Source: Dorea sp. AF36-15AT
GTDB lineage: Bacteria > Bacillota > Clostridia > Lachnospirales > Lachnospiraceae
DNA: 64,000 nt
Reading direction: 5' to 3'
Assembly: GCF_003477705.1 (NCBI RefSeq)
Contig: NZ_QUDV01000008.1
Location: 1 to 64,000 of the forward strand
Shown: positions 924 through 31,554 of the stretch, piece after piece
How positions within the stretch are numbered: the stretch's first letter is position 1
How the letters are laid out: each line of letters starts with the position of its first letter
Translations under genes and position numbers: made by a program
The notes under the pieces: generated by a model
What the model saw: the letters and a program-made list of their open reading frames with translations, nothing else
Told to the model about the DNA's origin: nothing
Database searches by the model: none

Positions 924-948
924 TGTAATCACTTCAGGAGTGATTACA
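924..948 (+). promoter_or_regulatory. erm(B) attenuator hairpin over the start site
   Basis: A perfect 10-bp stem (TGTAATCACT at 924-933 against AGTGATTACA at 939-948) encloses the AGGAG of the erm(B) ribosome-binding site and touches the ATG. This fits sequestration of translation start until the leader ribosome stalls. Confidence 0.8.
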
Positions 949-7757: not shown

Positions 7758-8084
7758 ATGACACAAGAAGAATTTAATGTTGTATTTGAACTTCAGATGA
7801 GAAAGTGTGCCGATATTCTGGCACATAAAAAGAAAGAATATACCGGTGATAATATTGACCGCCTCAGTGCATTCAAGATTGCTGCCGCTTTACAGAACTG
7901 TGATCCAAAAGCAGCACTGGCCGGCATGATGTCGAAACATGTCGTATCCCTTTACGATATGTGTTATTCCACTCTGTTACATTTTGACATGGAACAGTGG
8001 GATGAAAAAATCACAGACTGCATCAATTATCTGATCCTTTTAAAAGCTCTGGTAAAGGAGGAACAGGCCTATGGATCACATTGA
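7758..8084 (+). CDS. Nmad1/MazG-like nucleotide-modification-associated protein
   Basis: A 108-residue, mostly helical protein after an AAAGGAGG site. The pattern KKKEYTGDNIDRLSAFKIAA...GMMSKHVVSLYDM...DEKITDCINYLILLKAL resembles the phage 'nucleotide modification associated domain 1' (DUF1599) and all-alpha NTP-pyrophosphatase folds, with conserved acidic and K-H pairs. It probably acts on nucleotides or modified bases. The gene overlaps thyX by 14 bases and is clustered with dUTPase, supporting a DNA-precursor role. The family is recognised by pattern only; enzymatic activity is unproven. Confidence 0.6.
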   Translation: MTQEEFNVVFELQMRKCADILAHKKKEYTGDNIDRLSAFKIAAALQNCDPKAALAGMMSKHVVSLYDMCYSTLLHFDMEQWDEKITDCINYLILLKALVKEEQAYGSH

Positions 8085-8850
8085 AACAGCTATCTTAAAC
8101 TGCTATGGAATCCGGGAAGCAGAACAAAATATGGTCTTTGCTGCCAGGCTCACACAACACGGTCATACGATTCAGAGCATGGCAGATCTGATGGACCTTT
8201 ACCATCAATCCTACAGTCAGAAGACCGTAGAAAACATTGCGGGGCTTCCACATCCAACCGTACAGAAATTCATGGTCATTACCGTGGCTGTTGTTGGTGC
8301 AAGCAGACGCTTCCTGGCACAGATCACAAGGCATCAGAACGAAGTAAAGTACATGAGTGCATCTCTGCAGTACAGCAATTATTCCGGTCATGCTGCATTT
8401 GCTATTCCATATGGGATCATGAAAGCAGATAAAGAAATCCAGGATATTTACAAAAAAAGCTGTCAGTCAGATCTGGACCACTATACAGAACTCTGTGCCT
8501 TAGGCATTGATCATGATTCAGCCGGATATGCCACACCTCAGGGACTTCGAAACGTACTGATCATCAGTGCAACGCCTTACCAGTGGAAGCATATGATCGG
8601 TCAGAGAACCTGCAGAAGAAATACGGATGAAACAAGGATTGTGATGCTACAGATCTGGCAGAGATTGTACAAATTAAGCCCGATTCTTTTTGCACCGGAT
8701 CTGACCGGTCCATTCTGTCAGAGAGGAAGCTGTATGGAAAAACAGATGTCCTGCCAGAATCCTATTTCAAAACTTTGGATACCGTCAGATATCTTAAAAG
8801 CAGATTATCCATTGCTCATCAGAAGGGAGGTGAGCAGCCATAAAGATTAA
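8071..8850 (+). CDS. thyX: FAD-dependent thymidylate synthase ThyX, divergent motif
   Basis: 259 residues. ThyX makes dTMP from dUMP using FAD, NADPH and methylene-tetrahydrofolate. The protein aligns with ThyX through the core, but the family signature RHR-x7-S appears as RHQNEVKYMSASLQYS (residues ~89-104): the second Arg is Gln, the usual 'RYS' is 'QYS', and one residue is inserted. Similar variants occur in phage-type ThyX proteins, to my knowledge. The C-terminus is extended with a Cys-containing segment (CQRGSCMEKQMSC). Coupled to the preceding gene by overlap; its last codons overlap the dUTPase start. Confidence 0.75.
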   Translation: MDHIETAILNCYGIREAEQNMVFAARLTQHGHTIQSMADLMDLYHQSYSQKTVENIAGLPHPTVQKFMVITVAVVGASRRFLAQITRHQNEVKYMSASLQYSNYSGHAAFAIPYGIMKADKEIQDIYKKSCQSDLDHYTELCALGIDHDSAGYATPQGLRNVLIISATPYQWKHMIGQRTCRRNTDETRIVMLQIWQRLYKLSPILFAPDLTGPFCQRGSCMEKQMSCQNPISKLWIPSDILKADYPLLIRREVSSHKD

Positions 8851-9253
8851 ACTGATTGACTTTGGTCTGAAAGCAGATCATTATCCCTTCCGGCCACATG
8901 AAAATGATGCCGGTGCTGATGTATTCATGCCTTATGATTGCGTATTAAAACCAGGTGAGGTTGCAAGAATTCCACTTGGATTTGGTCTCATCATCCCCGA
9001 TGGATTTGCCGGATATGTCTTTCCACGAAGCAGCATGGCAGCAAAAGGACTGGTATGCGAACTTCCACCGATCGACTCCGGTTACCGTGGTGAGATCCAT
9101 GCCATTATCAGCAACGTAAGCACATCTTCTCAGACCATTCATAAAGACACACGCGTCGGTCAGCTGGTGATTACACCAGTCGTGATCGCAGATTTTGTCC
9201 TGGACCTTGGTAATGAACGAGGAACCGGGGCTTTTGGAAGTACAGGAGAATAA
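8840..9253 (+). CDS. dut: dUTP diphosphatase, probable AUA start
   Basis: Hydrolyses dUTP to dUMP and PPi, supplying ThyX with substrate and keeping uracil out of DNA. All five dUTPase motifs are present: DAGADV (23-28), PRSSMAAKG, the IDSGYRGEIHA loop, RVGQLVI, and the C-terminal GTGAFGSTG. The only in-frame ATG (8927) lies after motif 1 and would delete it. Upstream, the frame opens at 8834 and contains no ATG, GTG or TTG. The best initiator is ATA at 8840, seven bases after GGGAGGTG; ATT at 8846 or CTG at 8852 are alternatives. It sits in an operon with thyX and the next XRE gene. Confidence 0.85.
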   Translation: MKIKLIDFGLKADHYPFRPHENDAGADVFMPYDCVLKPGEVARIPLGFGLIIPDGFAGYVFPRSSMAAKGLVCELPPIDSGYRGEIHAIISNVSTSSQTIHKDTRVGQLVITPVVIADFVLDLGNERGTGAFGSTGE

Positions 9254-9257
9254 TACT

Positions 9258-9536
9258 ATGATTACATTTGGAAGAAAATTAAAACACTTAAGACAGAAAA
9301 ATCATCTCACCCAGAAAGAACTCGGCATGGCTGTTGGATTTCCAGAAAGCTGTGCTGATGTCCGGATTTCTCACTATGAAAGCGATGTCCGAACACCGAA
9401 AGAGGATCTTATGAAACTCTTCGCATCAAAACTCGGTGTTCCGGTTGAACTCTTTACCGTACCGGTACTCTCAGAACCCAGGGAGTATGAGGCAGCGGAG
9501 TATTGGAGGTATGAGTTAGGGGCAGAACTAGATTAA
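9258..9536 (+). CDS. XRE-family helix-turn-helix protein
   Basis: 92 residues from MITFGRKLKHLRQ (ATG 9258, immediately after the dUTPase stop). A classical XRE helix-turn-helix occupies residues ~5-62 (LTQKELGMAVGF...VRISHYESDVRTPKEDLMKLFASKLGV). It ends with a short acidic tail. It probably regulates the preceding mobilization/nucleotide operon or a linked promoter. It is the last gene before a terminator at 9555-9579. Confidence 0.82.
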   Translation: MITFGRKLKHLRQKNHLTQKELGMAVGFPESCADVRISHYESDVRTPKEDLMKLFASKLGVPVELFTVPVLSEPREYEAAEYWRYELGAELD

Positions 9537-9554
9537 GTGTCATAATACTGAAAT

Positions 9555-9579
9555 GAGGCAACGGCTTTTCCGCTGCCTC
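9555..9579 (+). terminator. Terminator of the mobilization/nucleotide operon
   Basis: GAGGCAACGG/CCGCTGCCTC stem with a TTTT loop. A T-rich tract follows a few bases later (ending TTTTTTGG). It separates plus-strand genes from the minus-strand genes beyond. Confidence 0.7.
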
Positions 9580-9667
9580 TCTCTTATCATTTTTTGGGGT
9601 AATAATTGAAAATATCCTGCGTTGAGCAATCCTCTTTTTCTGCGCTTTATCTGCATATCTATATATT

Positions 9668-10096
9668 TCATTTTATTTCTGTTCCATCGATAAAAAGAAC
9701 ATATTTATCTAGATTATGAACAATATCATAATCTTTTCCATATTCAATCGGTCTAAATTCTATCTGCATAATGGATTTTCCATTTTCGATATCTTCTTTC
9801 CAAGAATATACGGTCATATCAAGGCTGGTTGCATATCCATGATCTGTAGAAAATTTTATTGAATGAAATGAATTCTCTTTGTACATTTTTAAAAGCAGTC
9901 TTGCAAATGCTTCTTTATCAGAAATATTTTTTCTGTTAGCAACTACTGTAAGATTTTCATCTCTATTCATAGAAAAACTGCCAACTACATCTGGCTCACC
10001 TTCTTTATACTTTAATAAGCTTTTTCCAATTATCATTCCAACAATAATCGAAAAAACGATAGCAACAAATACAAGTGTTATATTATTTTTCTTCAT
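9668..10096 (-). CDS. Membrane-anchored hypothetical protein
   Basis: 142 residues with one N-terminal transmembrane anchor (residues ~7-27, VFVAIVFSIIVGMIIG) and an extracytoplasmic domain of mixed strands (SFSMNRDENLTVVANR..., SMQIEF-like strand near 118). No lipobox Cys and no recognised family. AT-rich and monocistronic, next to an XRE regulator on the same strand. The function is unknown; candidates are a surface-exposed exclusion or sensing protein of the element, without direct evidence. Confidence 0.6.
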   Translation of the reverse strand: MKKNNITLVFVAIVFSIIVGMIIGKSLLKYKEGEPDVVGSFSMNRDENLTVVANRKNISDKEAFARLLLKMYKENSFHSIKFSTDHGYATSLDMTVYSWKEDIENGKSIMQIEFRPIEYGKDYDIVHNLDKYVLFIDGTEIK

Positions 10097-10211
10097 TTTA
10101 TTAAGTTCCTCAGAATTATATATAAGTCTTTAGAACTACTATATCATATTTTCACGTTAAACCAAATAAAAAAGAAGAGCAATAAGCCCTTCCATCTTCT
10201 TATTCATGTAT

Positions 10212-10526
10212 TTATTCCACCAATGCCCTCACCGCATTGATAATTCTCTGTTGCTTTTCTTTAGGTAGTTTCTCTATCATTTCAGATAATTCATTCGTAA
10301 CGCCAGTAACCGAATGTGTCACAACATCAATCAATAGTGTATCTGCTGAAACATCTAATGCATTTGCAATCGCAATAAAGGTATCAAGTTTTGTTACTTT
10401 CAGTCCTCTCTCTATAACACTTACATGAGTTGGACTTAAGCTTACCAGTGCTGCCAATTCTTCTTGTGTAAGATTCTTAGCTTCCCTTGCAGCTTTTATT
10501 CTCTGACCAACCGCCTTTAAATCCAT
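10212..10526 (-). CDS. XRE-family repressor
   Basis: 104 residues. The N-terminal XRE helix-turn-helix (AAREAKNLTQEELAALVSLSPTHVSVIERG, residues ~13-42) is followed by a region ending in a helical KLPKEKQQRIINAVRALVE tail common to small Firmicute regulators. The start ATG lies eight bases after AAAGGAGG. Just upstream is a TTTAGA/TCTAAA dyad that could be its own operator, and TTTAGAAC occurs again near 10620 and 10126, flanking the neighbouring promoters. Probably an autoregulated repressor. Confidence 0.82.
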   Translation of the reverse strand: MDLKAVGQRIKAAREAKNLTQEELAALVSLSPTHVSVIERGLKVTKLDTFIAIANALDVSADTLLIDVVTHSVTGVTNELSEMIEKLPKEKQQRIINAVRALVE

Positions 10527-10538
10527 TGTGACACCTCC

Positions 10539-10562
10539 TTTAGAACGATAATTCGGTCTAAA
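10539..10562. promoter_or_regulatory. Candidate operator dyad for the XRE repressor
   Basis: TTTAGA at 10539-10544 and TCTAAA at 10557-10562 form a dyad with 12 bases between, overlapping the ribosome-binding region of the repressor gene. Related TTTAGAAC half-sites occur at about 10621 and 10125. Confidence 0.45.
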
Positions 10563-10643
10563 ACTAGTATAACGATTGATCTTTAAAACATACAGAATCT
10601 ACAGATTGTTAACTTGTTCTTTAGAACTATTTTAAATTAAAAA

Positions 10644-10673
10644 GGCCCAAAAGGGCACTTTCCCTTTTGAGCC
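10644..10673 (-). terminator. Intrinsic terminator, minus strand
   Basis: GGCTCAAAAGGG pairs with CCCTTTTGGGCC and is followed on the minus strand by TTTTTAATTT. It ends the long minus-strand operon whose last gene stops at 10751. Confidence 0.8.
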
Positions 10674-10750
10674 TATACACTTTATCAACTAACGTATTTT
10701 GCTTTCATTTTTCCTCATGGTCATGAGGCTTTTTTCTCTTAAATCGCATT

Positions 10751-11041
10751 CTATGAATCCTTTGATTGTTCTTTCTGTTCTTCAATAATTCGTTCGGTTG
10801 CTTTATGAATCCTATCCTTGGAATAGGGTGGTCTTAAATTCAATGATAACCGTCCCTTTCTGATCATATACGTTTCACTGCCATCTTCCGAAGCTCCTTT
10901 CAACCAGCAATCATCCGGACACTTCTCAGCAAAGGATCTCAACCGTTTCTGCAAGCTCTGATTGAAGGTATACACATCATAGAATCCGTCATCTTCATTG
11001 GTCAGAATAATCGTTTCTTTTTCACACTTTAACCTTCGCAT
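10751..11041 (-). CDS. Hypothetical protein of the conjugative element
   Basis: 96 residues beginning MRRLKCEKETIILTNEDDGF after GGGGGTAG. It has a beta-rich N-terminus and a basic, helical C-terminus (RIHKATERIIEEQ). The segments YTFNQSLQKRLRSFAEKCP and CWLKGASEDGSETYMIRKGRLSL are reminiscent of small conserved proteins of Tn1549/CTn-like elements, but I do not recognise a named domain. It is the last gene of the operon that contains the YodL-type, TTRAP-like and ArdC-like genes, four bases after the preceding stop. Confidence 0.6.
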   Translation of the reverse strand: MRRLKCEKETIILTNEDDGFYDVYTFNQSLQKRLRSFAEKCPDDCWLKGASEDGSETYMIRKGRLSLNLRPPYSKDRIHKATERIIEEQKEQSKDS

Positions 11042-11044
11042 ATT

Positions 11045-11929
11045 CTACCCCCGCTTTCTTTCCATTTCCTGATCCAGGTACTTTGGTATCGGCTTTCCGG
11101 ACCGACGAGCAATAGCAATCTGTTTCTGATGCAGTCGTTTAATCACGGATCTTCGTTTCTTAGGTTTGCCATCCTGTTGATTTCTGGGAGTCTGTTTGTT
11201 GCTGCGGGCATTAGAGATCTTTTCTGGATTCTTCTTCTGATTATTTACCAGACCGTCCACCATATCATAATTGGCTTCGGTACCGGATTCTCTGCTTCGT
11301 TCATAAGTGCCGTTCTGGTAGAACTTCTGGTAATGTTCCAGACGGATTTTACCATCTTGTTTTAACTGTTCGACTGAATTTAGCGGTGCCTGCTGTTGAA
11401 TGTAATTATGGATCTTTTGTTTTGTTTTTTCGTCGAATTTCTTACATTCTTCGACAACCATTTTTCCATAGGCATCCAGGATAACACCTTGAGCCTGATC
11501 CCGGTATACTTGATGCTCCATCAGATAAAACTGTTTCCCGTTGATGATGATGGTGTCTGTTGCAATCCAGTTCCCTTTTTTTCCGTCAATTTGATAATTC
11601 TCAGTCTCCATAGTGATCAGTGCGCCCGATGTATTGATACGAATGAATCCGGCCAGATACTGTGGATAGTTCTCATCTACATAGTAGCAGTTGATTTCTC
11701 CATCCCTGTTCAGTACAAGTACGTCACTGACTTCGCATTGCTTTTTCATTCGTTTCCAGATGTCAGCGACTTTTTCTTCTTCCTGCATTTCATGAATCGA
11801 GATTACTCGGTAATTTTCGACAGTAATCGACACATTCTGCTGTCTTGCCTCTTGATATGGCAGATGCCACAGTGCTTTTCCTGCTGTCTGCTGATCTACT
11901 CGGTAGACTGCAAATTGATTAAGCTTCAT
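11045..11929 (-). CDS. YodL-domain accessory protein
   Basis: About 294 residues, from MKLNQFAVYRVDQQ (the second of two close ATGs; it has the better spacing from GGAGG). The N-terminal YodL-like domain (residues ~1-50) is followed by a 'VSDVLVLNRDGEINCYYVDE' block that matches the equivalent part of the larger ArdC-like protein two genes upstream, so the two share a domain pair. The C-terminal ~100 residues are basic and low-complexity (KKRRSVIKRLHQKQIAIARR), suggesting DNA or RNA contact. YodL/DUF4316-type domains are common in conjugative elements but have no established biochemical role. Confidence 0.65.
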   Translation of the reverse strand: MKLNQFAVYRVDQQTAGKALWHLPYQEARQQNVSITVENYRVISIHEMQEEEKVADIWKRMKKQCEVSDVLVLNRDGEINCYYVDENYPQYLAGFIRINTSGALITMETENYQIDGKKGNWIATDTIIINGKQFYLMEHQVYRDQAQGVILDAYGKMVVEECKKFDEKTKQKIHNYIQQQAPLNSVEQLKQDGKIRLEHYQKFYQNGTYERSRESGTEANYDMVDGLVNNQKKNPEKISNARSNKQTPRNQQDGKPKKRRSVIKRLHQKQIAIARRSGKPIPKYLDQEMERKRG

Positions 11930-12179
11930 AGGCATCGTCCTCCAAGTTATTCAGATAATAATTCAGATCCAGAGAATAGTAGTATTTGTCTTCGATCTGC
12001 TGTAATTTTCCAACTGTAGAATTGATGATCTCAATCATTTCATCATTCTCAGGATCACTTTCTTCCTGTTCCAAAACTTCCAAAGCTTCTTTCAGTGTTT
12101 GGATTGTTTCTTCCTTTGTGTGCTGCTGGAAGATAGCAGTAATAGTCAGTTCGTTTTCTTCCAGGTTTACATTTCTCAT
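11919..12179 (-). CDS. Transposon-transfer-assisting (TTRAP-like) small protein
   Basis: 86 residues, acidic and helical: MRNVNLEENELTITAIF...EETIQTLKEALEVL...TVGKLQQIEDKYY. It matches the pattern of the TTRAP family, small proteins conserved in Firmicute conjugative transposons between an ArdC-like gene and YodL-type genes. The role in transfer is inferred from genomic association only. It overlaps the downstream gene by 11 bases and the upstream ArdC-like gene by four, indicating tight translational coupling. Confidence 0.65.
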   Translation of the reverse strand: MRNVNLEENELTITAIFQQHTKEETIQTLKEALEVLEQEESDPENDEMIEIINSTVGKLQQIEDKYYYSLDLNYYLNNLEDDAYEA

Positions 12180-14197
12180 AGGCTCATTTCCCCCCTTTTC
12201 TTTTTCGCTATTGGTTTCATCTGTATATTCAGCTCCTTCTCGTTTTTTTCTTCGCTTATATTTTTTTCGTTATCCACTTTCTTATTGGATTTCGGAGGAT
12301 TTTCCACATTTGGATGTCTTTCTTCCAAGTACTTTTCCACACGACTGATTGCATTTTGCACATAAGAGTTTTCTCTAAATCCAGGAATCGAATTCAAAAA
12401 TTCTTTCTGTATTTTTCCTTCAATCATCAGGCTCTGCATCCCTTCATAATCACTTCCGTCTTTCAAATCAAAGCCAACACATTTCAGTCCATGCATACGT
12501 TCTGATGGGATTTTCTCATAAGCTTCCAAGGCTTCCGGTAATGTCAGGTCATAATGTACTTCACCCATTACAGGAAATTCAGCACATTCAGCCGCATAAA
12601 AGCTGATACATGTAAGATCATTTTCATAATCCACATTTTCTATTTCCGGGACAATATCGAGTATTTTTTCTCTTTGTGCTGCAAACTCTGAAAGTTCTGC
12701 AAATCCAAATCGATCCACGTAATATGCCTGCATATCCCCACCACGGTTTGTAATGATAACATCACTGACCGACATAGAATGTGCTTTATAATCTGCCGGT
12801 GGATTATCGTTGAATACGGCATACAAATCATCCAGCTTTTCATTTTCATGTAATCTGCCAGAATAGACACACTTATAATTTGCTGCATCGATTGTAATGC
12901 CATCTTCTTTGACCATTGCCATATTCATAAATAAATGTTGTTTTCCCGGTGTGTCTTCATCCACATGATAAATCGCATAGCGGTCACCATTACCTCTGAA
13001 CATTTCTTCCTCTAGGGTATAATCAAACTTAAATGGATACAAAGCCCGATCAACTCTTTCCGAAATATCCGTTCCTTCTGCAATCGTATCTTCCAGCCAA
13101 TCTTTGATATCTTCCCATGATTCAAACTGCAAATACCCAGCAATTTCATGTGTCCCATCCGGTGCCAGTACAATATGTCCCGGTTTGCTTTCCCGATAAT
13201 CATAGCGGTATCCGGCTGCTTCCAGTGCATCTACCAGAATGCCGTATTTTTCATGTAATTCTGTTTTTTGTTTTTCTTCAAGAATGATTTCCAGTTCTTC
13301 TGTAAGCTGATCGATCATTTCACCGGCTGTCTTGCGGATCACATCCATAGATGCTTTCATTTCCTTCATTTCCCGGCTGCTGCTCCAACCTGCAATATAA
13401 GGAAAACTGTAATCCGATGTATCCAAACCAAAGGAAGAACACACACAGTAAGCAACGGATTCTGCTTCAACCTCTTTTGTCAGACGGTCTTTTTCTACAC
13501 CCAGGCTTTCCATGATTTCCTTGTCATGCAGTTTAGCATGGGCTGTTTCATGAATAGTAGTCTTTAAGGTCTGACTTTCACTGAGCCCTTTTTTGATCAC
13601 GATTTCCTTGTCTGCATTGTGATAATATCCATTGGCATTGCCATCGATCTCATCGAATCGAATCGGCACTGGGGATATTTTCTGAATAGCCTGCATGAAA
13701 GAATCAAAATCCTGTACAGCTGCAGTCAGTAATTCCGGTGCTAGTGTCTGGATTGGTTCCCCGGATGTCTGAGCAATATCAAAGACGGTAACTGCTTTAA
13801 AATGTGGAACTGTAACTTCCACTTTTTCAGTCTTAGGTTTTCCATCAGTTCCCATGATTGGTCGCTGATTTTCATCCAGAACCTCTTTTTCCTTCATTTT
13901 CTTATATGGTGCCGGTGCAATGATTGTAATTCCTTTTTCCCCTTTCATGACCTGTCTACCCATGGACTGCCAGTTTTTGTAACTGGTAACAAGTGTGGCA
14001 TCCGGTCGTTGCATGGCGATCAGCATTGTATTATTAAAGGAATAATTGTGAAACTTTGCCATGGTTTTAAGAAATTCCTGATAGCGGTTACTTGTAAAAA
14101 GTTCTTCCACACCGGATTCCAGTGACTGCATAATGCTGTCCATATCTTTTCCCTGGACCGGCAGTGGAATAGTAGTAGTTTTTTTTTGTTCTGTCAT
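12176..14197 (-). CDS. ArdC-like antirestriction/zincin protein with YodL domain
   Basis: About 673 residues; start chosen at MTEQKKTTTIPL (ATG 14197), as the earlier codon overlaps the ribosome-binding site. An ArdC-N/DUF1738-like domain (residues ~20-140) resembles proteins that protect incoming single-stranded DNA from restriction. It is followed by a zincin metallopeptidase helix HETAH at ~216-220 with downstream acidic residues, then a YodL-type domain (YAIYHVDEDTPGK...) and a long C-terminal acidic region. This combination is typical of large accessory proteins of Tn1549-like elements. A terminator-like hairpin at 14217-14247 lies immediately upstream, so expression may depend on antitermination or its own promoter. 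Confidence 0.8.
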   Translation of the reverse strand: MTEQKKTTTIPLPVQGKDMDSIMQSLESGVEELFTSNRYQEFLKTMAKFHNYSFNNTMLIAMQRPDATLVTSYKNWQSMGRQVMKGEKGITIIAPAPYKKMKEKEVLDENQRPIMGTDGKPKTEKVEVTVPHFKAVTVFDIAQTSGEPIQTLAPELLTAAVQDFDSFMQAIQKISPVPIRFDEIDGNANGYYHNADKEIVIKKGLSESQTLKTTIHETAHAKLHDKEIMESLGVEKDRLTKEVEAESVAYCVCSSFGLDTSDYSFPYIAGWSSSREMKEMKASMDVIRKTAGEMIDQLTEELEIILEEKQKTELHEKYGILVDALEAAGYRYDYRESKPGHIVLAPDGTHEIAGYLQFESWEDIKDWLEDTIAEGTDISERVDRALYPFKFDYTLEEEMFRGNGDRYAIYHVDEDTPGKQHLFMNMAMVKEDGITIDAANYKCVYSGRLHENEKLDDLYAVFNDNPPADYKAHSMSVSDVIITNRGGDMQAYYVDRFGFAELSEFAAQREKILDIVPEIENVDYENDLTCISFYAAECAEFPVMGEVHYDLTLPEALEAYEKIPSERMHGLKCVGFDLKDGSDYEGMQSLMIEGKIQKEFLNSIPGFRENSYVQNAISRVEKYLEERHPNVENPPKSNKKVDNEKNISEEKNEKELNIQMKPIAKKKRGEMSL

Positions 14198-14216
14198 AAT
14201 ACTCCTTTCCAAAAAC

Positions 14217-14247
14217 GCCCTACGACATTGTGCTTATGCCGCAGGGC
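14217..14247. terminator. Bidirectional hairpin terminator
   Basis: GCCCTACGACAT pairs with ATGCCGCAGGGC (12 bp with G-U pairs). A T-run follows on each strand. Located between the DUF5688-like gene and the ArdC-like gene. Confidence 0.7.
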
Positions 14248-14279
14248 TTTTTATTAGTTGATGAGATGATTATTTTTTA

Positions 14280-15329
14280 TTAGAGTTCCATATCGTGCTT
14301 CTTTGTTTTCGGTTTCTGATCCGGCTGTTCTTTTCCAACTTTCTCTGTTTTTGCAACCTGCGCTTCTTTTTCTTTCTGACGTTCTGTGAACCTGTCTGCC
14401 TTTTCAAAGACGTGATCCTTTGTGTCAAAGTGATATACATCATTGGTAAGGCGTTCTGCTGGTGCTACCTGAGTGGCATTAACTTCTTTTACCATATCTC
14501 TTAACATTTCCGCATCCACTTGACCGTCATCCGGCAAGATCAGCATTTGATGGATGGATGATGGCAAAATGAAGAAATCATTTCCCAGAAGTTCCCCCAT
14601 GTTATCCATGAATTCCGGATAAAAGATCACACCGGCTCCATCAATTCTTTCTGTATTCGTAACAACAAAGAATGTCGGCATCTCGCTTGACTCCTGCAAT
14701 GTTTCTAGCAGCATTTCACGTTCATCTGGTGTCAGCATGAGAATATTTTTCTGATATATTTCATCTATCAGTACACCTATACTTGATACCTCTGGGACCA
14801 TGACACGCGGTGAACTTTTCATAGCGTCTTCATGAATCTGCTCCTGTGTCACTCCATATTCCTTCATCATTTCATTTGTAATCAGCATGGAACTTAATCC
14901 ATCCTGATTCTTGCCTACTGCCACATGATAGGTAATTGCAAGATCTTCCTTTAACTGGTGTGGCACAATTTCGAGGACTTCCTTATTTGCTTCGGCTGAT
15001 GACACACGGATAAACAGCTTGTCCTTCACATCTTCATAGTTTAAAATAGCTTTCAGATCAACCTGTATCGGTGCCTCAATAACTATATCTGCAATCTTTC
15101 TGCATACAGTTTCCATTGTTACGCCAGGCTGTGCTTTATATGCTTCATACAGCCGGTTAAGATTGATCGTCGGGGTAAGCATCTCACCTTCTTTTCTCAC
15201 CATCAGTCCCGTATAGGCACGGTTCAGTTTCTGACACTCCATCGTTGATACCTCTGCATTCTCATAATCCCTTGGTAAAAAGAGTTTGATATTGTCCTTT
15301 ACTTCATTTACAAATTCATTAAAATTCAT
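14280..15329 (-). CDS. DUF5688-family protein
   Basis: 349 residues beginning MNFNEFVNEVKDNIKLFLP. It resembles the DUF5688 proteins widespread in gut Firmicute conjugative elements: an N-terminal segment with LNRAYTGLMVRK, a central SSMLITNEMMKEYGVTQEQI block, and FFVVTNTERIDGAGVIFYP followed by DFFILPSSIHQMLILPDD. The C-terminal ~50 residues are charged and low-complexity. No catalytic residues are assigned to the family. It lies downstream of topB and is presumably co-transcribed. The cellular role is unknown. Confidence 0.75.
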   Translation of the reverse strand: MNFNEFVNEVKDNIKLFLPRDYENAEVSTMECQKLNRAYTGLMVRKEGEMLTPTINLNRLYEAYKAQPGVTMETVCRKIADIVIEAPIQVDLKAILNYEDVKDKLFIRVSSAEANKEVLEIVPHQLKEDLAITYHVAVGKNQDGLSSMLITNEMMKEYGVTQEQIHEDAMKSSPRVMVPEVSSIGVLIDEIYQKNILMLTPDEREMLLETLQESSEMPTFFVVTNTERIDGAGVIFYPEFMDNMGELLGNDFFILPSSIHQMLILPDDGQVDAEMLRDMVKEVNATQVAPAERLTNDVYHFDTKDHVFEKADRFTERQKEKEAQVAKTEKVGKEQPDQKPKTKKHDMEL

Positions 15330-15357
15330 TCTTCGTTTCCTCCTCTAATCTGTTTTC

Positions 15358-17469
15358 TTATTTCTTTTTGCTTTTGTTTTTTGGTTTCTTTTTGGGAAAG
15401 GATAAAGAAAAATTCACCTTTCCGGTTTCATCTGTATCCATATGGAGATCTGCCTCAAAGTACATATTTTTCTTTCTGGAATACAGGTCTTTCACATGCA
15501 CACTTCCGTTTTTTAGAAGTTCTGCAGCCATCTTTTTATCCATGGTTTTTTCCATGCTCTGCAGATAGCGGTTGTCTTTCCAGAGAGCAAAGTGACAATC
15601 ATGGTTGCTGCAATAGAAGTTGGTTTTACTTTCATATACCAGGCTTCCACATACCGGACAGGTTCCAATGCTTTCTCTGGTCTGAAATCTTCTTGTTTCT
15701 TCTTCGGAAATCGCATCGCATCCATTCAGCATCATGGTCAGCATGTTTTTGATCCCAGTCATAAACTGTTCCGGTGCAATCTCTCCATGCTCCATCAAAA
15801 GCAACTGGTTTTCCCATTCTGCAGTCATACTTGCAGATTTCAGGAAGTCTGGCAGGATCTCCACAAGGACTTTTCCATCATCTGTTGGAAGGATCTGTTT
15901 TCCTTTTCGGGTGGCATATTGGGAATAGATCAGTTTCTCGATGATACCGGCTCTTGTTGCCGGAGTTCCTAATCCTTTCTTTTCCGTATCTTCATCGAAT
16001 TCCTTATTTCCAGCTGTTTCCATTGCCGCAAGGAGAGTATCTTCGCTATATGGTTTTGGTGGGGACGTAAAATGTTCTGTCTTTTCTGCAGCTACAGCAT
16101 AGAAAGTCTGTCCCTGGGTTACTTTCGGCATTCTCTCTTTCATTTCCTGATCCGGATCTACGATTGCCATGCGATCCTTATTTTTGAAGCAGTTTTCAAA
16201 GAGTTTCCATCCATCCTGCAGAACAATCTTTCCTTTTGCTTTGAAGATTTCTCCCTGGCATTCCACTTCAATCTCTGTTTCCTGGTAAATGTGATCCTTA
16301 CTCATTGCCATGACCGTATGGACTGCAATTAGAAACAGTATCTTTTCTTCCCAGGATTTCAGTTCATCCAGATGACAGGATGCAAGCTCCATCGTTGGGA
16401 TGATTGCATGGTGATCTGTCACTTTGCTGTTATTCATGACCTTCTTCACATCCGGCTGTTCCGGCTGATCAAACGGACCTGTCAGTTGATATTTCTCATA
16501 AATCTGACGAACCACATTTCTTGCGGTCTGTTCCATATCTTCGGTCAGATACTGGCTGTCCGTTCTTGGATAAGTGATCAGTTTCTTTTCATACAGGCTC
16601 TGGGCGGTATCCAGTGTCTGTTTGGCTGTCATTCCGTAGATACGGTTTGCTTCTCTCTGCAGTGTGGTCAGATCATAAAGCTTTGGTGCTTTTACTTTCT
16701 TTTCCGTTTCTTTTACTGCTGTGACAATAGCTTCACTTCCTTGGCATCTGCTTCTTAACTGTTCCGCCTCATCCGGATCAAAGATCTTTGGCTTTACAGC
16801 CGGAATTCCATCACAATCGAGTTCCACATTGAAATACTTTTCTTTCTGGAAATTGCTGATCTGTCCGGCACGTTCCACCAACATGGCAAGTGTCGGTGTC
16901 TGAACCCTTCCAACGGTCAGCTTTTTGAAGTACTTTGTGGTGTAAGCTCTGGTTGCATTCATTCCTACCAGCCAGTCAGCCTGAGAACGGCATACAGCAG
17001 CTTCGGCCAGATGTCGGTATTCCTCTGCGGATCTCAGATGCTGCATTCCATCAAGGATTGCTGAATCTTCCAGAGAACTGATCCATAATCGTTTCACCGG
17101 CTTTTTACTTCCGGATAAGTCATAGACATGTTTGAAGATTAATTCTCCTTCACGTCCGGCATCACAGGCATTTACGACGTATTCAATTTCCGGACTGTTG
17201 AGCAGTCTTTTTAAGATATAGAACTGATCTTTCTTATCTTCTGAGACTGTAACTTTCCAGTCTTTCGGGATGATCGGGAGATCTTCATATCTCCACTGGC
17301 TAAATTTCTCATCGTAGACATCCGGTGAAACATACTCGACCAGATGTCCGAAGCACCAGCTGACCATACAGTCGGTTCCTCTTAAATATCCGTCTTCTCG
17401 TTCCTGTGCTCCAATCACTTCTGCGATTGCTCTTGATACACTTGGTTTTTCTGCAATTACTAAATACAT
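15358..17469 (-). CDS. topB: DNA topoisomerase III
   Basis: 703 residues. A type IA topoisomerase that passes single strands through a transient break, helping resolve transfer and replication intermediates. The Toprim domain opens with MYLVIAEKPSVSRAIAEVIG and includes NACDAGREGELIF. The active-site region KKLITYPRTDSQYL carries the catalytic Tyr, and GRVQTPTLAML is conserved. Near the end is a zinc-finger-like CPVCGSLVYES...CSNHDCHF, then a lysine-rich tail. The start follows GAAGGAGG, which is the downstream edge of dispersed repeat copy D. TopB is a standard component of Tn1549/CTn-type conjugation modules. Confidence 0.95.
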   Translation of the reverse strand: MYLVIAEKPSVSRAIAEVIGAQEREDGYLRGTDCMVSWCFGHLVEYVSPDVYDEKFSQWRYEDLPIIPKDWKVTVSEDKKDQFYILKRLLNSPEIEYVVNACDAGREGELIFKHVYDLSGSKKPVKRLWISSLEDSAILDGMQHLRSAEEYRHLAEAAVCRSQADWLVGMNATRAYTTKYFKKLTVGRVQTPTLAMLVERAGQISNFQKEKYFNVELDCDGIPAVKPKIFDPDEAEQLRSRCQGSEAIVTAVKETEKKVKAPKLYDLTTLQREANRIYGMTAKQTLDTAQSLYEKKLITYPRTDSQYLTEDMEQTARNVVRQIYEKYQLTGPFDQPEQPDVKKVMNNSKVTDHHAIIPTMELASCHLDELKSWEEKILFLIAVHTVMAMSKDHIYQETEIEVECQGEIFKAKGKIVLQDGWKLFENCFKNKDRMAIVDPDQEMKERMPKVTQGQTFYAVAAEKTEHFTSPPKPYSEDTLLAAMETAGNKEFDEDTEKKGLGTPATRAGIIEKLIYSQYATRKGKQILPTDDGKVLVEILPDFLKSASMTAEWENQLLLMEHGEIAPEQFMTGIKNMLTMMLNGCDAISEEETRRFQTRESIGTCPVCGSLVYESKTNFYCSNHDCHFALWKDNRYLQSMEKTMDKKMAAELLKNGSVHVKDLYSRKKNMYFEADLHMDTDETGKVNFSLSFPKKKPKNKSKKK

Positions 17470-17480
17470 GATGTATTACC

Positions 17481-17520
17481 TCCTTCATATAACGAAACGG
17501 AGAGAGCATATTTTACAGCC
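17481..17520 (-). repeat. Dispersed ~38-bp repeat, copy D
   Basis: On the minus strand: CTGTAAAATATGCTCTCTCC, then GTTTCGTTATATGAAGGAGG. This is the most divergent copy. Its 3' edge provides the ribosome-binding site of topB, so it cannot simply be a conventional promoter with an untranslated leader here. Confidence 0.8.
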
Positions 17521-17541
17521 CCCTCCACTAAAAAAGTTTAT

Positions 17542-18288
17542 TTATTTTTCATTTTCTTCAAAATCTTCGTCTTCAGACTCTTCCTCATCCGAAATTTCTT
17601 CCAGTCCATCTGTTTCCAAACCTTCCGGCTGATCATCCTCATCTTCCTCTTTTTTAGGCTTATAGATCTTGAAGTAGTAGTAAGCTGCCACACCGCCGAG
17701 AGCCAAAATCAGGATTGTTGCCATTGCACCCATATTGGTTTTGGTAGATGCTGTTTTCTCCGGATCAACGGTAGCTTCCTTGTCTACATCCTCATTATTT
17801 GTTTCATCCAACACTACCTTTGATGTATCCGGCTGTGGTGTTACGACAGTAGAAGTGCTGTCTTTATCCAGAAATTCAGACAGATCATTCTCATCAATCT
17901 GGGATAACATATAGACATTCTGGGATGTGGCACTGCGGTCGATCACGATATAGAAAGTGTTATTATTCTTCGTTGTAACCGTAAGAAATTCCTTTGTGGA
18001 ATCATCGGTAATGTCATCCTTGACTTCGCCATTTCCTGGTGTCGTAAAGGCAGTTCCCTTGTCTGTTCCATCTTCCGGCAGCACCTCACTTGTACTTGCC
18101 ACCTCATCCTTTTTGTCATCTTTTTTCTCTTCTTTGTCTGTTGACTGCTCTGTCTGAGTTGTCTCTACTTTGGATGCCTCTGCTGATTCATCCACATAGG
18201 CAAATGCTGTGGTTGATGCTGTAAAAAGCATCATGACTCCCAACAACAGTCCTGCCATTTTCTTATTCATTTTCTTCCATTTCACCAT
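17542..18288 (-). CDS. DUF4366-type cell-surface protein
   Basis: About 248 residues starting MVKWKKMNKKMAGLL (ATG 18288, eight bases after AAGGAGG). N-terminal signal peptide (residues ~8-32, ending AFAYVDE), an acidic Thr/Ser-rich stretch, a central conserved beta-rich block (FLTVTTKNNNTFYIVIDRS...NVYMLSQIDENDL), a transmembrane helix (MATILILALGGVAAYYYF), and a highly acidic cytoplasmic tail. The pattern matches DUF4366 proteins of Tn1549-family conjugation modules, presumed envelope components of the mating channel. It overlaps the DUF4315 gene by 26 bases. No sortase motif. Confidence 0.8.
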   Translation of the reverse strand: MVKWKKMNKKMAGLLLGVMMLFTASTTAFAYVDESAEASKVETTQTEQSTDKEEKKDDKKDEVASTSEVLPEDGTDKGTAFTTPGNGEVKDDITDDSTKEFLTVTTKNNNTFYIVIDRSATSQNVYMLSQIDENDLSEFLDKDSTSTVVTPQPDTSKVVLDETNNEDVDKEATVDPEKTASTKTNMGAMATILILALGGVAAYYYFKIYKPKKEEDEDDQPEGLETDGLEEISDEEESEDEDFEENEK

Positions 18289-18571
18289 TCTGATTTTCCT
18301 CCTTATTTTTTTCTGTGAATACAAAGGAGCCTGAACCTTCTTCGTCAGACTCCCTGCTTACCTGAAATTTAACTGTTCCACTCTGGATACCATCCAAAAG
18401 ATCATATAACTGATCATTATCCATCTTCATACCACGGATGCACCTGATCATCTCATTGTCCTCTTCCTGCTTTAATGCAGCCTGGACACCCCTAAGATAT
18501 TGCTGCAGATCCGCGATCTTTTTCTCTGTCTTGACAATCTCATCCAGATATTTTTTAATCTTTTTATTCAA
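18263..18571 (-). CDS. DUF4315-family protein
   Basis: 102 residues, initiated at a TTG preceded by GGGAGGTGAAAGT. The N-terminal half is a coiled-coil-like helix (KKIKKYLDEIVKTEKKIADL). The middle MIRCIRGMKMDNDQLYDLL and an acidic C-terminus match DUF4315, a small protein found next to DUF4366 and the NlpC/P60 protein in this family of conjugative elements. Predicted cytoplasmic. The role is unknown; the conserved neighbourhood suggests a structural or regulatory part of the transfer machine. Confidence 0.78.
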   Translation of the reverse strand: MNKKIKKYLDEIVKTEKKIADLQQYLRGVQAALKQEEDNEMIRCIRGMKMDNDQLYDLLDGIQSGTVKFQVSRESDEEGSGSFVFTEKNKEENQNGEMEENE

Positions 18572-18597
18572 ACTTTCACCTCCCTTCGTTCACCCCT

Positions 18598-20886
18598 TTA
18601 TGGCAGTCTTCCAAAGCACATGAAATGTTGCTGCCAGTAGGATGTGCTGATATTTGAGTAATGGATCGGATCCCCGCAATGGATCATCATATTGTTACCG
18701 ACATAGATACCCACATGGCTTGCACCGGATGTGTTATACGTTCCCTGGAAGAAAATCAGATCTCCTGGTTTTGCTTCTCCCGGTGATACATAAGTACATA
18801 CGCCTCTTAATCCTTCTGCGGTCAACCGTCCATAGTTCCAGCCATTACCACAATGGTTAATGACATAGGATACGAAACCTGAGCAGTCAAATCCAGATGG
18901 AGAGTAGCCACCCCATACATAAGGTACTCCCAGATATTTTTCTGCTTCTCGGATCATCCGGGCAAATTCTTCATCCTGCAGTGCTTCCGGTGGAATCTCA
19001 TAACTCATTCCATTACCGCCTGATCCACTGGTCACATTGTTTACATCCCACAGATAATTTCTGTTTCCATAGGTCGTATTTAATGCATTATAGATGATCA
19101 GCTGCTCCGCATTCAGATTGGCTCTTGCCACAGCGTCAAAGCTTCCATTTGTCAGTGTCACATATAGAATCTTCTTAGTGCTTGTACTGGTAACCGTTAC
19201 TTCCTGACTGCCATTGTCATCTGCGATATAGGCTTCCCAGGTCTGATGTCCATGAGCAGAAGCGGCAGCATGGTTATCATAGTAAACGTCAAACTGCACA
19301 CCATATCGTGCAAAGGCTCCGGTATCCTCAACTGTGTATTCCACACCATTCATTACTACCTTAGTGCCAATCGGCACAAATGGATTGGAAGCATCTACAG
19401 CAATGGTATGGTTTGCAGTTGGATATGCACCACTAGCAGTTGGACCTCCGGACCATACACCACAACAGATTCGACAGTTACAATATCCGCTGGTCACTAC
19501 CTGTCCTAATGATTCTCCGACTCGAACATTTCTGGTTTCTGTCACCGTTTCTGTTCGACCTTCCGTATTCAGATGATATTGTGCTTCAAAAAGAGCTTGC
19601 AGCTCGTTTTCAACATCTGCGTACGTCCAGTCCCCATATTTTGCGGTAAGATACGAGATAAGATGGTATGGATTATGGCCGATCTCAGCAATGTTGTACT
19701 GATACTCGTCATAATTCGGATGTCTTCGTTCCATCTCATTGATCTGCTGGTTCAAGGCACTTTCCAAAGCAGCATATCTGTTTTCAGCAGCATAGATATC
19801 CTCATCCGAACTTGGATACGTTGTAATACCGATCACAGATCCAGCTCCCTCTATAGAGGCACTGCAGCTCCCCAGGGATACCGCTATGACAAGAAAAAGA
19901 AGCGCAAAAATACCGATGCCTGCGAACATGGCACGATTACGCTTTATGATCTCTTTCAAGGCGATCTTTGCTTTTACCGTCATGTTCTCGACACCGGCAA
20001 TGGTTGTTGCTCCACCCAGACTGCCAGCGGATTTTCCGGCTCTGGCTGCTCGGTAAGCATCCTTATATCGTTTTTTCTGGAAGAAGCGGTTATAGAAATG
20101 TCTCTTTTGTTCGGCTTTCTTTACCGTTTCTGCATTCTTGACTCCTTCCATACTTTCTGCAGAACCAAATTTCAGTTTCTTTTCTACAGTAGCCTCACGA
20201 TAACCTCTGCGATGGGTTTTCACATCCGTCCGTTTGCTGCGGATCTGAGCATGACGCAGACCACGTAACGCATCTTCTGTTTCACGCTCTACAAGTCTGG
20301 CACTTTCCACACCTGCATTTTCATCTGTTTCTTCCTCTTCGGAAGAGACTGCTTTCATGCCAGATATAACAGCTTGTGTAGCAATGTATTTCCCGGCTGT
20401 CCCTCCCGGTTTCATGCCAGCACCTTTCACCATCTGATTTCCTTCATCATCAAAAGATAATCTTCCAGCTTTTGCCTGTTCTTTGGTCATCTGTTTTTGC
20501 AACTGTTTCTTCCGAATGGATTTCTTTTGGCTGTTCAGATTATTATCATCATCCGGGATTTTTTCATAACGATGCAGTTTCTTTCGATATCCGGATACTT
20601 TTTCTTCCGGTGTAACTTCAACTGTATCCTCAACAGCTTCCTGCCGGACAGAAGATTTACGGACTTTCTCCATCTGCAGTCGTTTTCCTTTTCCCGATTT
20701 TGAATCTTCATTCTCAGCCTTTTTCCGTTCCCGTTCAGGAACAAATTCTTCTTTAGTTTCCGGTCGCCCACGGCTCCTGTGACTGATATCTTTTACACTA
20801 CCATCATGGAGATTTTCTTCTGTCAGACCATCTCTGGTCATCTTTGCGACCTTTTTATCTTTGCCTTTAAATTCTTTTCCAGCTAT
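18598..20886 (-). CDS. Conjugation cell-wall hydrolase, 3D + NlpC/P60 (CD1108-like), probable AUA start
   Basis: Remodels peptidoglycan so the mating channel can cross the wall. Order: a long basic N-terminal cytoplasmic region (~300 residues), a transmembrane helix (GIGIFALLFLVIAVSLG), a 3D domain (CNCRICCGVWSGGPTASG...VEDTGAFARYGVQFDVYYD), and a C-terminal NlpC/P60 peptidase with catalytic Cys in FDCSGFVSY and His in SHVGIYVG. The first ATG in frame is at 20841, but it has no ribosome-binding site. Fifteen codons upstream, ATA at 20886 follows AGGAGGTG by seven bases and yields an (M)AGKEFKGKDKKVAK start like that of relatives. The frame is closed just above it. Confidence 0.85.
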   Translation of the reverse strand: MAGKEFKGKDKKVAKMTRDGLTEENLHDGSVKDISHRSRGRPETKEEFVPERERKKAENEDSKSGKGKRLQMEKVRKSSVRQEAVEDTVEVTPEEKVSGYRKKLHRYEKIPDDDNNLNSQKKSIRKKQLQKQMTKEQAKAGRLSFDDEGNQMVKGAGMKPGGTAGKYIATQAVISGMKAVSSEEEETDENAGVESARLVERETEDALRGLRHAQIRSKRTDVKTHRRGYREATVEKKLKFGSAESMEGVKNAETVKKAEQKRHFYNRFFQKKRYKDAYRAARAGKSAGSLGGATTIAGVENMTVKAKIALKEIIKRNRAMFAGIGIFALLFLVIAVSLGSCSASIEGAGSVIGITTYPSSDEDIYAAENRYAALESALNQQINEMERRHPNYDEYQYNIAEIGHNPYHLISYLTAKYGDWTYADVENELQALFEAQYHLNTEGRTETVTETRNVRVGESLGQVVTSGYCNCRICCGVWSGGPTASGAYPTANHTIAVDASNPFVPIGTKVVMNGVEYTVEDTGAFARYGVQFDVYYDNHAAASAHGHQTWEAYIADDNGSQEVTVTSTSTKKILYVTLTNGSFDAVARANLNAEQLIIYNALNTTYGNRNYLWDVNNVTSGSGGNGMSYEIPPEALQDEEFARMIREAEKYLGVPYVWGGYSPSGFDCSGFVSYVINHCGNGWNYGRLTAEGLRGVCTYVSPGEAKPGDLIFFQGTYNTSGASHVGIYVGNNMMIHCGDPIHYSNISTSYWQQHFMCFGRLP

Positions 20887-20892
20887 AGGTCA

Positions 20893-21351
20893 TCACCTCC
20901 TGGCACAACTTTTCTTTCTGTACTCATTCAGTTCCTGGCGTCCTATAATCGGGATACCAGGATAACCATCTGCCTGTGTCCTGATTGCTGGAGAGCTCGC
21001 CTGAATATGAAATACCCAGTTCAATTCACTCGGATCTCTCGGCCAGAAACCATTGATCAGCATAGCCTCCTTGAACTGATTGTTGTGCAGATGGATCTGG
21101 GTACGTTTATACAAAACTTCTTTCAGATCATCACTGGTAAGATGCGGATAGATTTTCTGTGCCGGATAAAAATTCCAGAATACCCAGTCAAGGATAATAT
21201 TCTGTGTTTCCAGCGGAAGTTCATACAGATGATGATCATCATTGACTGTATGAACACGGTATCCTGGCTGCACATTTTCCAGATTTTTCATCTGAATGTA
21301 AGGATTATCCTGGTTCCACTGCCTGATTCGGATCTTATCGATTTCCTTCAT
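20893..21351 (-). CDS. Conserved conjugation-module protein (unknown)
   Basis: About 152 residues from MKEIDKIRIRQWNQDNPYIQ (ATG 21351 after GGAGGCGG). A compact globular protein with Trp-rich segments (ILDWVFWNFYPAQKIYPHL, GFWPRDPSELNWVFH), presumably cytoplasmic. I do not recognise a named family. Its position between virB4 and the NlpC/P60 gene, with overlap into virB4 (17 bases) and a six-base gap to the next start, indicates a co-translated part of the transfer operon. It ends TGA inside the ribosome-binding region of the next gene. Confidence 0.65.
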   Translation of the reverse strand: MKEIDKIRIRQWNQDNPYIQMKNLENVQPGYRVHTVNDDHHLYELPLETQNIILDWVFWNFYPAQKIYPHLTSDDLKEVLYKRTQIHLHNNQFKEAMLINGFWPRDPSELNWVFHIQASSPAIRTQADGYPGIPIIGRQELNEYRKKSCARR

Positions 21352-25060: not shown

Positions 25061-25156
25061 TTAACCAAATAATCCACTCAGAAGCGGGATCAGCTGTGTT
25101 CCGATCAGGATAACACCACCACCGCTCATCAGCTGCTTAATTCCCTGGGATTTTGC
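25061..25156 (-). pseudogene. maff2 3' part (interrupted gene)
   Basis: On the minus strand this encodes GIKQLMSGGGVILIGTQLIP and then LLSGLFG-stop, the C-terminal membrane helix of a Maff2-family protein. The N-terminal part is at 33906-34046; a serine-recombinase element separates them. It has no start codon of its own. Confidence 0.88.
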
Positions 25157-25243
25157 TTATGTGTGATAAAGAAGTAATAGAAGTGTAAAAAATTTTGCCT
25201 TTCCTATCCGATACTCAGCTCTGGTATCGGATAGGGCAGGCGG

Positions 25244-26881
<1,638 letters not shown>

Positions 26882-26985
26882 CTATTCCGTATTTCGATTA
26901 TACCACATGGGGCGGCTGTCTGTATAGCGGCTTCTGCTTCTTTACCGCCCGGTAAAATGACGATTTTTCTGTGCGGCTTGTAGCG

Positions 26986-27177
26986 TTAGGGCGAAAGCTG
27001 GGCTTTGTGTCCTGCGGCGGCTTCCGCCTCCAGCACTTTCATCATCTTATCGGCTGCGGTGTCGGTGGTATCTTTTTTGAAAAATCCGGAAACGACAAGG
27101 ACGGTGTTGCCCATGCGGATCTCTGTCACGCAGTCCGGGCGGCGTTCCGGGGTGGTGTTCTGCTTGTTCTCTGCCAT
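26986..27177 (-). CDS. Transposon-encoded TnpW-like protein
   Basis: About 63 residues from MAENKQNTTPERRPDC (ATG after GAAAGGAG). The core TEIRMGNTVLVVSGFFKKDT followed by TAADKMMKVLEAE matches the TnpW family of Tn4451-like and related elements. The function is unknown. It lies between the serine recombinase and the DnaC-like gene, a conserved position. Confidence 0.8.
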   Translation of the reverse strand: MAENKQNTTPERRPDCVTEIRMGNTVLVVSGFFKKDTTDTAADKMMKVLEAEAAAGHKAQLSP

Positions 27178-27189
27178 AGGCAACTCCTT

Positions 27190-28029
27190 TCATTTCATCA
27201 ATTCTTTTAGTCTGTTCAGCTTGGCTTGCGCCGTTTCACGGCGGAAGTTCTCTCCCGTAAAGAGGATAGGGGCGCACATTTCCAAAAGGCGGTCATAAAT
27301 CCGGGCATGGGCGGTGTCCAGCGGATTTTGCAGGCTGTCCAATGTCAGATTGGTGGTAACGATTAAGGGCTTGCGGCTGCGGTAGCGGCTGTCAATCACA
27401 TTGTAGACCTGTTCTAAACCGTACTCTGTGCCGCGCTCCATTCCAAAATCATCAATGATAAGCAGAGGAAAACGGCAAAGACGCCCGATATACTCGTTGC
27501 GCCCCTCAAAGCTGGCGGTCAGGTCATTCAAAATCGCAGAGAAGTTCGTCATGCGGACAGCGACTTCCTGCTCCATGAGGGCATTAGCGATACACCCGGC
27601 AAAATAGCTTTTTCCTGTGCCGACCTTGCCCCATAGCAGATAGCCGATATTTTCCTCGCGCATGGTTTCCCAATGCTCCACATAGAAGTGTGCAATCTCT
27701 ATTTGCGGGCATTTCCCGTTGTCGTTGGCGAAAGTCCATTCCTGCATGGTAGGATTGGTAAATCCCCGGCGCTTCAAGTCCTCCACGGTGTCAAGGTGCT
27801 TTCTGCGCTGTTCGGCGGCTTCACGCTCCAAACGCTGGGCTTTCTGGCAGTCACATTCTGCCGGGTGGCGGTCACGCCCAAACAGGGCGGCTTGCTTTTC
27901 CGGGAAGTAGGCTTCTTTCGGAGTGTAACACTTGCCGCAGTAAAGCAGTCCGTCCTCGCCCGTGTAGTCCTCCGGCTGTGGGGTAACAGCCGCCATATTC
28001 AAAACTCGTTCTGTAAACAGATTACTCAT
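27190..28029 (-). CDS. DnaC/IstB-like ATP-binding helicase loader
   Basis: About 279 residues from MSNLFTERVLNMAAV. A zinc-binding-like N-terminal part (LYCGKCYTPKEAYF...ECDCQKAQR) precedes a AAA+ domain with Walker A GKVGTGKSYFAG and Walker B LLIIDDFGMERG, and a sensor-1-like LIVTTNLTL. This is the DnaC/phage helicase-loader type. It overlaps the upstream replisome-organizer gene by four bases, so together they probably load the replicative helicase on the excised circular element or at its origin. Confidence 0.88.
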   Translation of the reverse strand: MSNLFTERVLNMAAVTPQPEDYTGEDGLLYCGKCYTPKEAYFPEKQAALFGRDRHPAECDCQKAQRLEREAAEQRRKHLDTVEDLKRRGFTNPTMQEWTFANDNGKCPQIEIAHFYVEHWETMREENIGYLLWGKVGTGKSYFAGCIANALMEQEVAVRMTNFSAILNDLTASFEGRNEYIGRLCRFPLLIIDDFGMERGTEYGLEQVYNVIDSRYRSRKPLIVTTNLTLDSLQNPLDTAHARIYDRLLEMCAPILFTGENFRRETAQAKLNRLKELMK

Positions 28030-31460: not shown

Positions 31461-31469
31461 GCAAAAAAA

Positions 31470-31496: not shown

Positions 31497-31554
31497 TTAT
31501 CTGCCGCTGTGATGGGCGGCGGTATTAAATTGTCAGCCGTTTTTCAAATGGAAT

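Follow-up and report, generated by a model that had tools for sequence, protein, structure and literature searches.

Translation initiation at AUA or another weak codon that follows an extended Shine-Dalgarno (SD) sequence is already known from infC, ccpN and sigR. The infC gene, which encodes IF3, has a noncanonical start codon in several bacteria, AUU in Escherichia coli and AUA in Staphylococcus aureus, and is autoregulatory. To our knowledge, few conserved AUA starts have been recognised in bacteria. The same is stated in a study of S. aureus (PMC13009471). In its reporters, AUA and AUU starts with an extended SD yield approximately 10% of AUG output, and ccpN reaches as much as 30% when the medium is rich; the AUA start of ccpN is, according to the same study, conserved with Bacillus subtilis. 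In Streptomyces, PMC5472188 describes a GTC start in sigR, preceded by AGGAGGTG and repressed by IF3, whose replacement by a canonical start leads to overproduction. In the literature searched, which covered few subscription journals, we found no relevant paper on AUA or other noncanonical starts in conjugative elements.

Here, we describe probable starts of this kind on a mobile element, where they are doubled and, in one gene family, recurrent. As in infC, a weak AU[U/A] codon follows a good SD, although infC is chromosomal and autoregulatory, whereas the two genes considered here are mobile-element genes, neither of them encoding IF3. Six of the seven host infC contexts that we read (of 12) contain GGAGGTG, 7 nt and then ATT, with an ATG four codons on; the infC of genome G001 lacks any canonical start from the stop to where the conserved N-terminus begins, and an ATA after GGAGG is the apparent start. 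The S. aureus ccpN and citZ genes resemble our loci in combining AUA with extended pairing between the SD and anti-SD, but are host metabolic genes whose starts were shown by ribosome profiling, while ours are mobile genes supported by comparison only (PMC13009471). The very extensive ribosome-binding site of sigR is likewise found here, and sigR is partly coupled to its neighbouring gene; it differs in that its start is GTC and not ATA, that it is a regulator gene, and that its start was tested by mutation (PMC5472188).

Both genes lie in a window of 64,000 nucleotides from Dorea sp. AF36-15AT, within a span (approximately 4985-58443, with gaps, its ends approximated by blastn) that is common to a conjugative element in Holdemanella and/or Eubacterium ER2. 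The gene families present, a MobA/VirD2-type relaxase, topoisomerase III, VirB4 of the CD1110 family, VirD4 of the CD1115 family and an NlpC/P60 protein of the CD1108 family, identify the element as conjugative and of the CD1107-CD1115 type. In long matching pieces, DNA identity is 91-97% with the elements of Holdemanella biformis DSM 3989 and of Eubacterium sp. ER2, and 68-80% with one in Blautia parvula.

The first gene encodes a dUTPase (8840-9253, plus strand, 137 codons plus stop), with a match to PF00692 (E 7.3e-22; 78 bits against a cut-off of 22) that covers residues 18-138 and is complete through motif 1; its score against TIGR00576 is below the cut-off (84.6 vs 102.55). The proposed start codon is an ATA (8840-8842), separated by 7 nt (8833-8839) from an extended SD, GGGAGGTG (8825-8832), which has the strongest anti-SD pairing (-22.1 kcal/mol) of 33 start sites in the element. 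The frame reads TGA (8831-8833), GCA GCC ATA (8840) AAG ATT AAA, with no ATG, GTG or TTG between the in-frame stop and an ATG at 8927-8929, codon 31, whose SD is weak (-5.8 kcal/mol vs -22.1 at the ATA). Its 5’ end overlaps the last 11 bases of a gene of the thymidylate synthase complementing protein family, similar to thyX (8071-8850, plus strand; PF02511, E 8.5e-32), which scores under the TIGR02170 cut-off.

The second gene encodes a CD1108-family transfer hydrolase with an NlpC/P60 domain (18598-20886, minus strand, 762 codons plus stop; NF045974, E 1.3e-54, 184.9 bits against a curated cut-off of 100; PF00877, E 4.2e-26). A hydrophobic stretch, read by eye at about residues 320-340, lies N-terminal to the catalytic part. 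The hydrolase agrees with the NF045974 family in its NlpC/P60 domain and in its position near VirB4 CD1110, but differs in its start, the subclade of the window having ATA in place of ATG, GTG or TTG. Its proposed ATA start (20884-20886, minus strand) again follows an extended SD, AGGAGGTG (20901-20894; -17.7 kcal/mol, third of the 33 sites), after a 7-nt spacer (20893-20887). The frame reads TGA CCT ATA GCT GGA AAA, and contains no ATG, GTG or TTG until an ATG at codon 16 (20839-20841), which has a weak SD (-4.5 kcal/mol vs -17.7) and is where the predicted proteins of close relatives start. Upstream lies an ORF of 164 codons (20893-21387, minus strand), for which no Pfam or NCBIfam family was matched, and which has its TGA inside the SD region of the hydrolase; it ends with tandem TGA TGA codons (20890-20895) in frame with the hydrolase.

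The initial annotation had described both genes as lacking a usable ATG, GTG or TTG at their conserved N-terminus and as carrying ATA exactly seven bases 3’ of GGAGGTG, and our reading of the sequence agrees in each respect. It had further proposed that a later ATG would delete motif 1 (DAGADV) of the dUTPase, which holds, as the next ATG at 8927 lies past that motif, and that 15 upstream codons restore an (M)AGKEFKGKDKK start to the hydrolase, as is indeed the case in the restored frame, which begins (M)AGKEFKGKDKKVAKM.

We identified the hydrolase ATA in all eight copies of the element that were found, each with an identical AGGAGGTGATGACCT leader. These were the window and loci from an uncultured Lachnospiraceae (L044, apparently the same contig as in G001), Blautia glucerasea (L045), Blautia luti (L046), Eubacterium ER2 (L049), Holdemanella biformis (L051) and genomes G376 (L145) and G504 (L146). 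The dUTPase ATA was similarly present in seven of seven copies, from the window, B. luti (L121), Holdemanella (L122), B. glucerasea (L123), ER2 (L124), G376 (L187) and G504 (L188); this count comprises the hydrolase-ATA copies with a dUTPase match, G001 having given no such match. The ATA is thus found outside the window in seven further assemblies for the hydrolase and six for the dUTPase, two of them single-contig genomes. In one set, three of six hydrolase loci (L147-L149) had no start motif visible. The conservation of ATA stops at this type of element, beyond which canonical codons are found.

For the dUTPase, a relative in G088 with 93% DNA identity has ATG, as does a group at 73-74% identity (L125-L127). 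The frame was visible in 38 of 41 loci, the other three being unmatched, and the 38 comprised 8 rows (6 distinct elements) with ATA, 2 with GTG and 28 with ATG, some rows repeating a genome. All 21 of the 22 IMG/VR dUTPase loci that could be read had ATG, one being unmatched by the motif. Among the best 38 protein relatives listed, 36 had M at codon 1 (MKIK or MKVK) and 2 began MIDFG. These two (P0029 and P0031, 89% identity) are predicted from the fifth residue, MIDFGLEADHH, which suggests another dUTPase lineage that may be without a canonical start at codon 1.

For the hydrolase, we found no relative in IMG/VR in searches by protein, by alignment and by DNA pattern. Elsewhere 77 loci were found, and to 60 of these we assigned a start codon manually; in the remainder, the motifs were not present in any frame (L082, L087, L089, L093, L097 and L102), or the loci had an N-terminus that was incomplete, different or unclear (L059, L070, L072, L083, L107 and L116-L120), or were ambiguous (L053). 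Distant hydrolases (L019-L043), several of which end before the start, were kept outside the tally. The 60 loci and the window together had 8 ATA, 9 TTG, 13 GTG and 31 ATG starts, and in every one of the 60 labelled loci, those with ATA included, a conserved Met is preceded at a distance of exactly 15 codons by a codon of the assigned type; the labels were set by hand, the distance itself not being imposed. The nearest relatives for which DNA was available (72-73%) have TTG. Predicted proteins with closer similarity begin at codon 16, including P0124 (747 aa, 99% identity, predicted as MTRDGLTEEN, in a cluster of 18,760 member sequences), P0126 (89%), P0128-P0131 (84%), P0133 (80%), and P0134 and P0136 (79%), while P0137 (78%) begins MAGKEYTGKDKKVSKM. 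From these protein predictions, the 79-89% group probably likewise lacks a canonical start. Automatic annotation thus tends to clip the N-termini of these proteins, and with the proposed start the predicted proteins of the main hydrolase cluster would lack 15 residues.

On a tree of 61 hydrolase rows, built by a quick method with the start region excluded and containing several long branches, ATA and canonical starts are separated by three changes: in the clade of the window, in L071 (Blautia sp. An81, whose start region is shared by L018 from G089), and in L115, a single Lachnospiraceae MAG on a long branch. The leader of L115, GGAGGTG AAGCGAC ATA, has the same geometry as that of the window, and that of L071 reads GGGGGTG ACGGAGA ATA, with a second ATA three codons later. 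The dUTPase ATA is confined to one clade. As the copies carry ATA, whereas in relatives further removed the corresponding codon is ATG, GTG or TTG in the hydrolase and mostly ATG in the dUTPase, a canonical start was most likely replaced, and the ancestral start was probably canonical at both sites. The initial annotation had judged independent loss of ATG in two genes unlikely by chance; the two changes did occur separately, but each goes far back and has been passed on through a whole clade of elements, and neither arose recently in the window. Its wider suggestion of AUA initiation is favoured by the comparison of homologous elements, and by the weak SDs of the downstream ATG codons.

The window ORFs with a minimum length of 110 codons and less than 40% overlap with longer ORFs (n = 63) were scanned for an AT[ACT] start with an SD energy of -13 or below. 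Canonical starts had to be absent up to and including that codon, and any within the 45 codons that follow had to have an SD energy above -7. This fixed rule selected exactly the dUTPase and the hydrolase, and none of 342 ORFs in 400 kb of the chromosome of the single-contig genome G376; the chance that both picks fall in the window set is 0.024. When applied to the surroundings of the element in G376 (60 kb) and G504 (80 kb), it again selected these two genes (2/56 and 2/73). With a threshold of -9, the scan selected 3 of 63 window ORFs, the extra one lying opposite other genes, and 1 of 342 chromosomal ORFs. The sensitivity of the rule is limited, as infC lies in the 400 kb of G376 and goes unflagged. 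The two sites exceed what is expected by chance. A third candidate (18357-17542, minus strand) had seemed startless and was rejected, as an ATG at 18288 fits after AAGGAGG. Near position 1097964 of G376:C1 (plus strand), we noted a 323-codon ORF, ITKRKVINSKKAVMIGCGFVGSASV, dehydrogenase-like by eye, which carries AAGGAGATGAGATT-ATT-ACGAAG but has no SD-preceded canonical start in the vicinity, a possible AUU start in a host gene.

SD strength was related to the start codon. Within the element, the AUA sites of the dUTPase (-22.1) and the hydrolase (-17.7) rank first and third of 33 (chance 0.006); the start sites were picked by hand, and these ranks were the same in a 30-site and a 33-site choice. 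The second strongest SD (-21.4) belongs to a TTG start at 18571 (minus strand), which agrees with the pairing of weak codons and strong SDs. Among the hydrolase loci, median SD energies were -17.7 for ATA, -14.8 for TTG, -12.6 for GTG and -11.2 for ATG, and 13 distinct non-ATG leaders had stronger SDs than the 23 with ATG (Mann-Whitney p 5e-6; choosing the second ATA of L071 raises this to 1e-4). For ATA alone, comparison of the three leaders with the 23 ATG leaders gave p 0.004 or 0.19, depending on whether L071 is read at its first ATA, upstream (SD energy -15.1), or at its second, which has the conserved spacing (-7.2); relatedness is ignored in all of these values. As a class, weak start codons therefore have stronger SDs, while for ATA alone the lineages are too few to be sure. 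Compensation is not strict, as SD energy is equal (-14.7) in L124, a dUTPase copy with ATA, and in its ATG relative L001. RNA folding around both AUA sites was unremarkable (z -0.93 for a hairpin at the dUTPase SD, -0.86 for the hydrolase).

From these features, we consider it highly probable that two genes of this conjugative element are translated from AUA with an extended SD; output would then be low and dose-limiting, and presumably sensitive to IF3. The near-perfect SD (A/GGGAGGTG, 7 nt 5’ of the codon) would anchor the 30S subunit, and the initiator fMet-tRNA would pair with AUA although the third base forms an A-C mismatch. Mismatched complexes are destabilised by IF3, so output would be a fraction of the AUG level and would rise when IF3 is short, a sensitivity that we propose by analogy with sigR and ccpN (PMC5472188, PMC13009471). 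The hydrolase, as a membrane-anchored wall cutter that opens a path for the transfer apparatus, might be dangerous in excess, and its dose would be kept low; the dUTPase, overlapping thyX, may be held low likewise, and a benefit of low dose is presumed for both. Both starts lie no more than 10 nt from the stop of the upstream gene, so that coupling to upstream translation is possible.

The foremost alternative is that AUA is used at both sites, but through drift and without a regulatory role, a strong SD having made the loss of the canonical codon tolerable. The three changes to ATA in one family, the frequent TTG and GTG starts and the inverse relation between SD and codon strength are suggestive of tuning, against this explanation; yet a strong SD could have come first and permitted the start codon to change, and such permissiveness would yield the same inverse relation. 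In addition, upkeep of ATA over a few percent of divergence is weak evidence of selection, and the SD is weaker in one copy of the dUTPase and, on one reading, in L071. We therefore regard drift as a real possibility, albeit one to which we give somewhat less than even weight.

Translation might instead begin at the following ATG, which is codon 16 in the hydrolase and codon 31 in the dUTPase, with the upstream codons untranslated, as in predicted proteins such as P0124; for the hydrolase, the loss would be confined to 15 cytoplasmic residues. The skipped codons, however, are constrained. Among the eight ATA copies of the hydrolase, the variable codons between positions 2 and 16 comprised 2 synonymous and 0 replacement changes, and for codons 2-30 of the dUTPase in seven ATA copies they comprised 3 synonymous and 1 replacement; in total 5 of 6 variable codons between the ATA and the next ATG were synonymous, against a neutral expectation of 0.18-0.28 (p 0.002-0.006). 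Hydrolase codons 61-150 were left out, as a length difference in L046 probably upsets the figures. The numbers are small, but this bias indicates that the stretch is translated without a canonical start. As the downstream SDs are weak at both genes, as the dUTPase would be deprived of motif 1, and as relatives with a canonical start keep the full N-terminus, initiation at the next ATG is in our judgement unlikely.

Less likely still is that ribosomes arrive by readthrough or frameshifting out of the preceding gene, or reinitiate with no genuine start codon. The hydrolase is in frame with the upstream ORF and the dUTPase overlaps thyX by 11 nt, but two tandem stops separate the hydrolase from that ORF, inspection by eye revealed no recognised slippery site, and in relatives this codon is an ordinary ATG, GTG or TTG. 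Reinitiation coupled to upstream translation at the AUA itself would be compatible with initiation at AUA as proposed above and is no alternative to it.

Loss of the start is a common first lesion of pseudogenes, and the missing ATG could accordingly mark both genes as decaying. The frames are open in the copies read, changes in the dUTPase after codon 30 are mostly synonymous (32 vs 7 replacement variable codons in the seven ATA copies), and the strong SD is retained in most copies, making decay very improbable. Finally, base-calling or assembly errors, for which one G/A difference per site would suffice, can be dismissed for practical purposes: the same ATA occurs in independent assemblies, with recorded coverages of 162 and 250 for the hydrolase contigs of two isolates and with two single-contig genomes among them, and as bases differ among the copies elsewhere in both genes, and in the dUTPase leader too, these are not one sequence deposited repeatedly. 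The ATA at both sites is not a sequencing error.

Two AUA starts in one element, one of them recurrent, provide natural replicates for asking whether weak codons act as dose limiters, and bear on whether IF3 couples horizontal transfer to host physiology. More tentatively, in conjugative elements of gut Firmicutes a wall-cutting enzyme may repeatedly, and a dUTPase in one clade, have come under an IF3-gated AUA, such that the initiation-factor balance and growth state of the host would set donor-wall opening and transfer frequency, with start codon and SD forming a tuned pair that is missed by gene callers.

We additionally identified other mobile features in the window. An 8.8-kb insert at 25156-33922 is absent from the same site in Eubacterium ER2; it encodes its own serine recombinase (25244-26851) and a protein (29125-30753) that resembles the relaxase of the element (32% identity to the Blautia parvula copy), and is probably a nested mobile element. 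An rRNA adenine dimethylase (948-1682, plus strand; PF00398, which we take to be the family of the Erm macrolide-resistance proteins) adjoins a DDE transposase (2184-3728, plus strand), and this pair lies outside the stretch common to the related elements.
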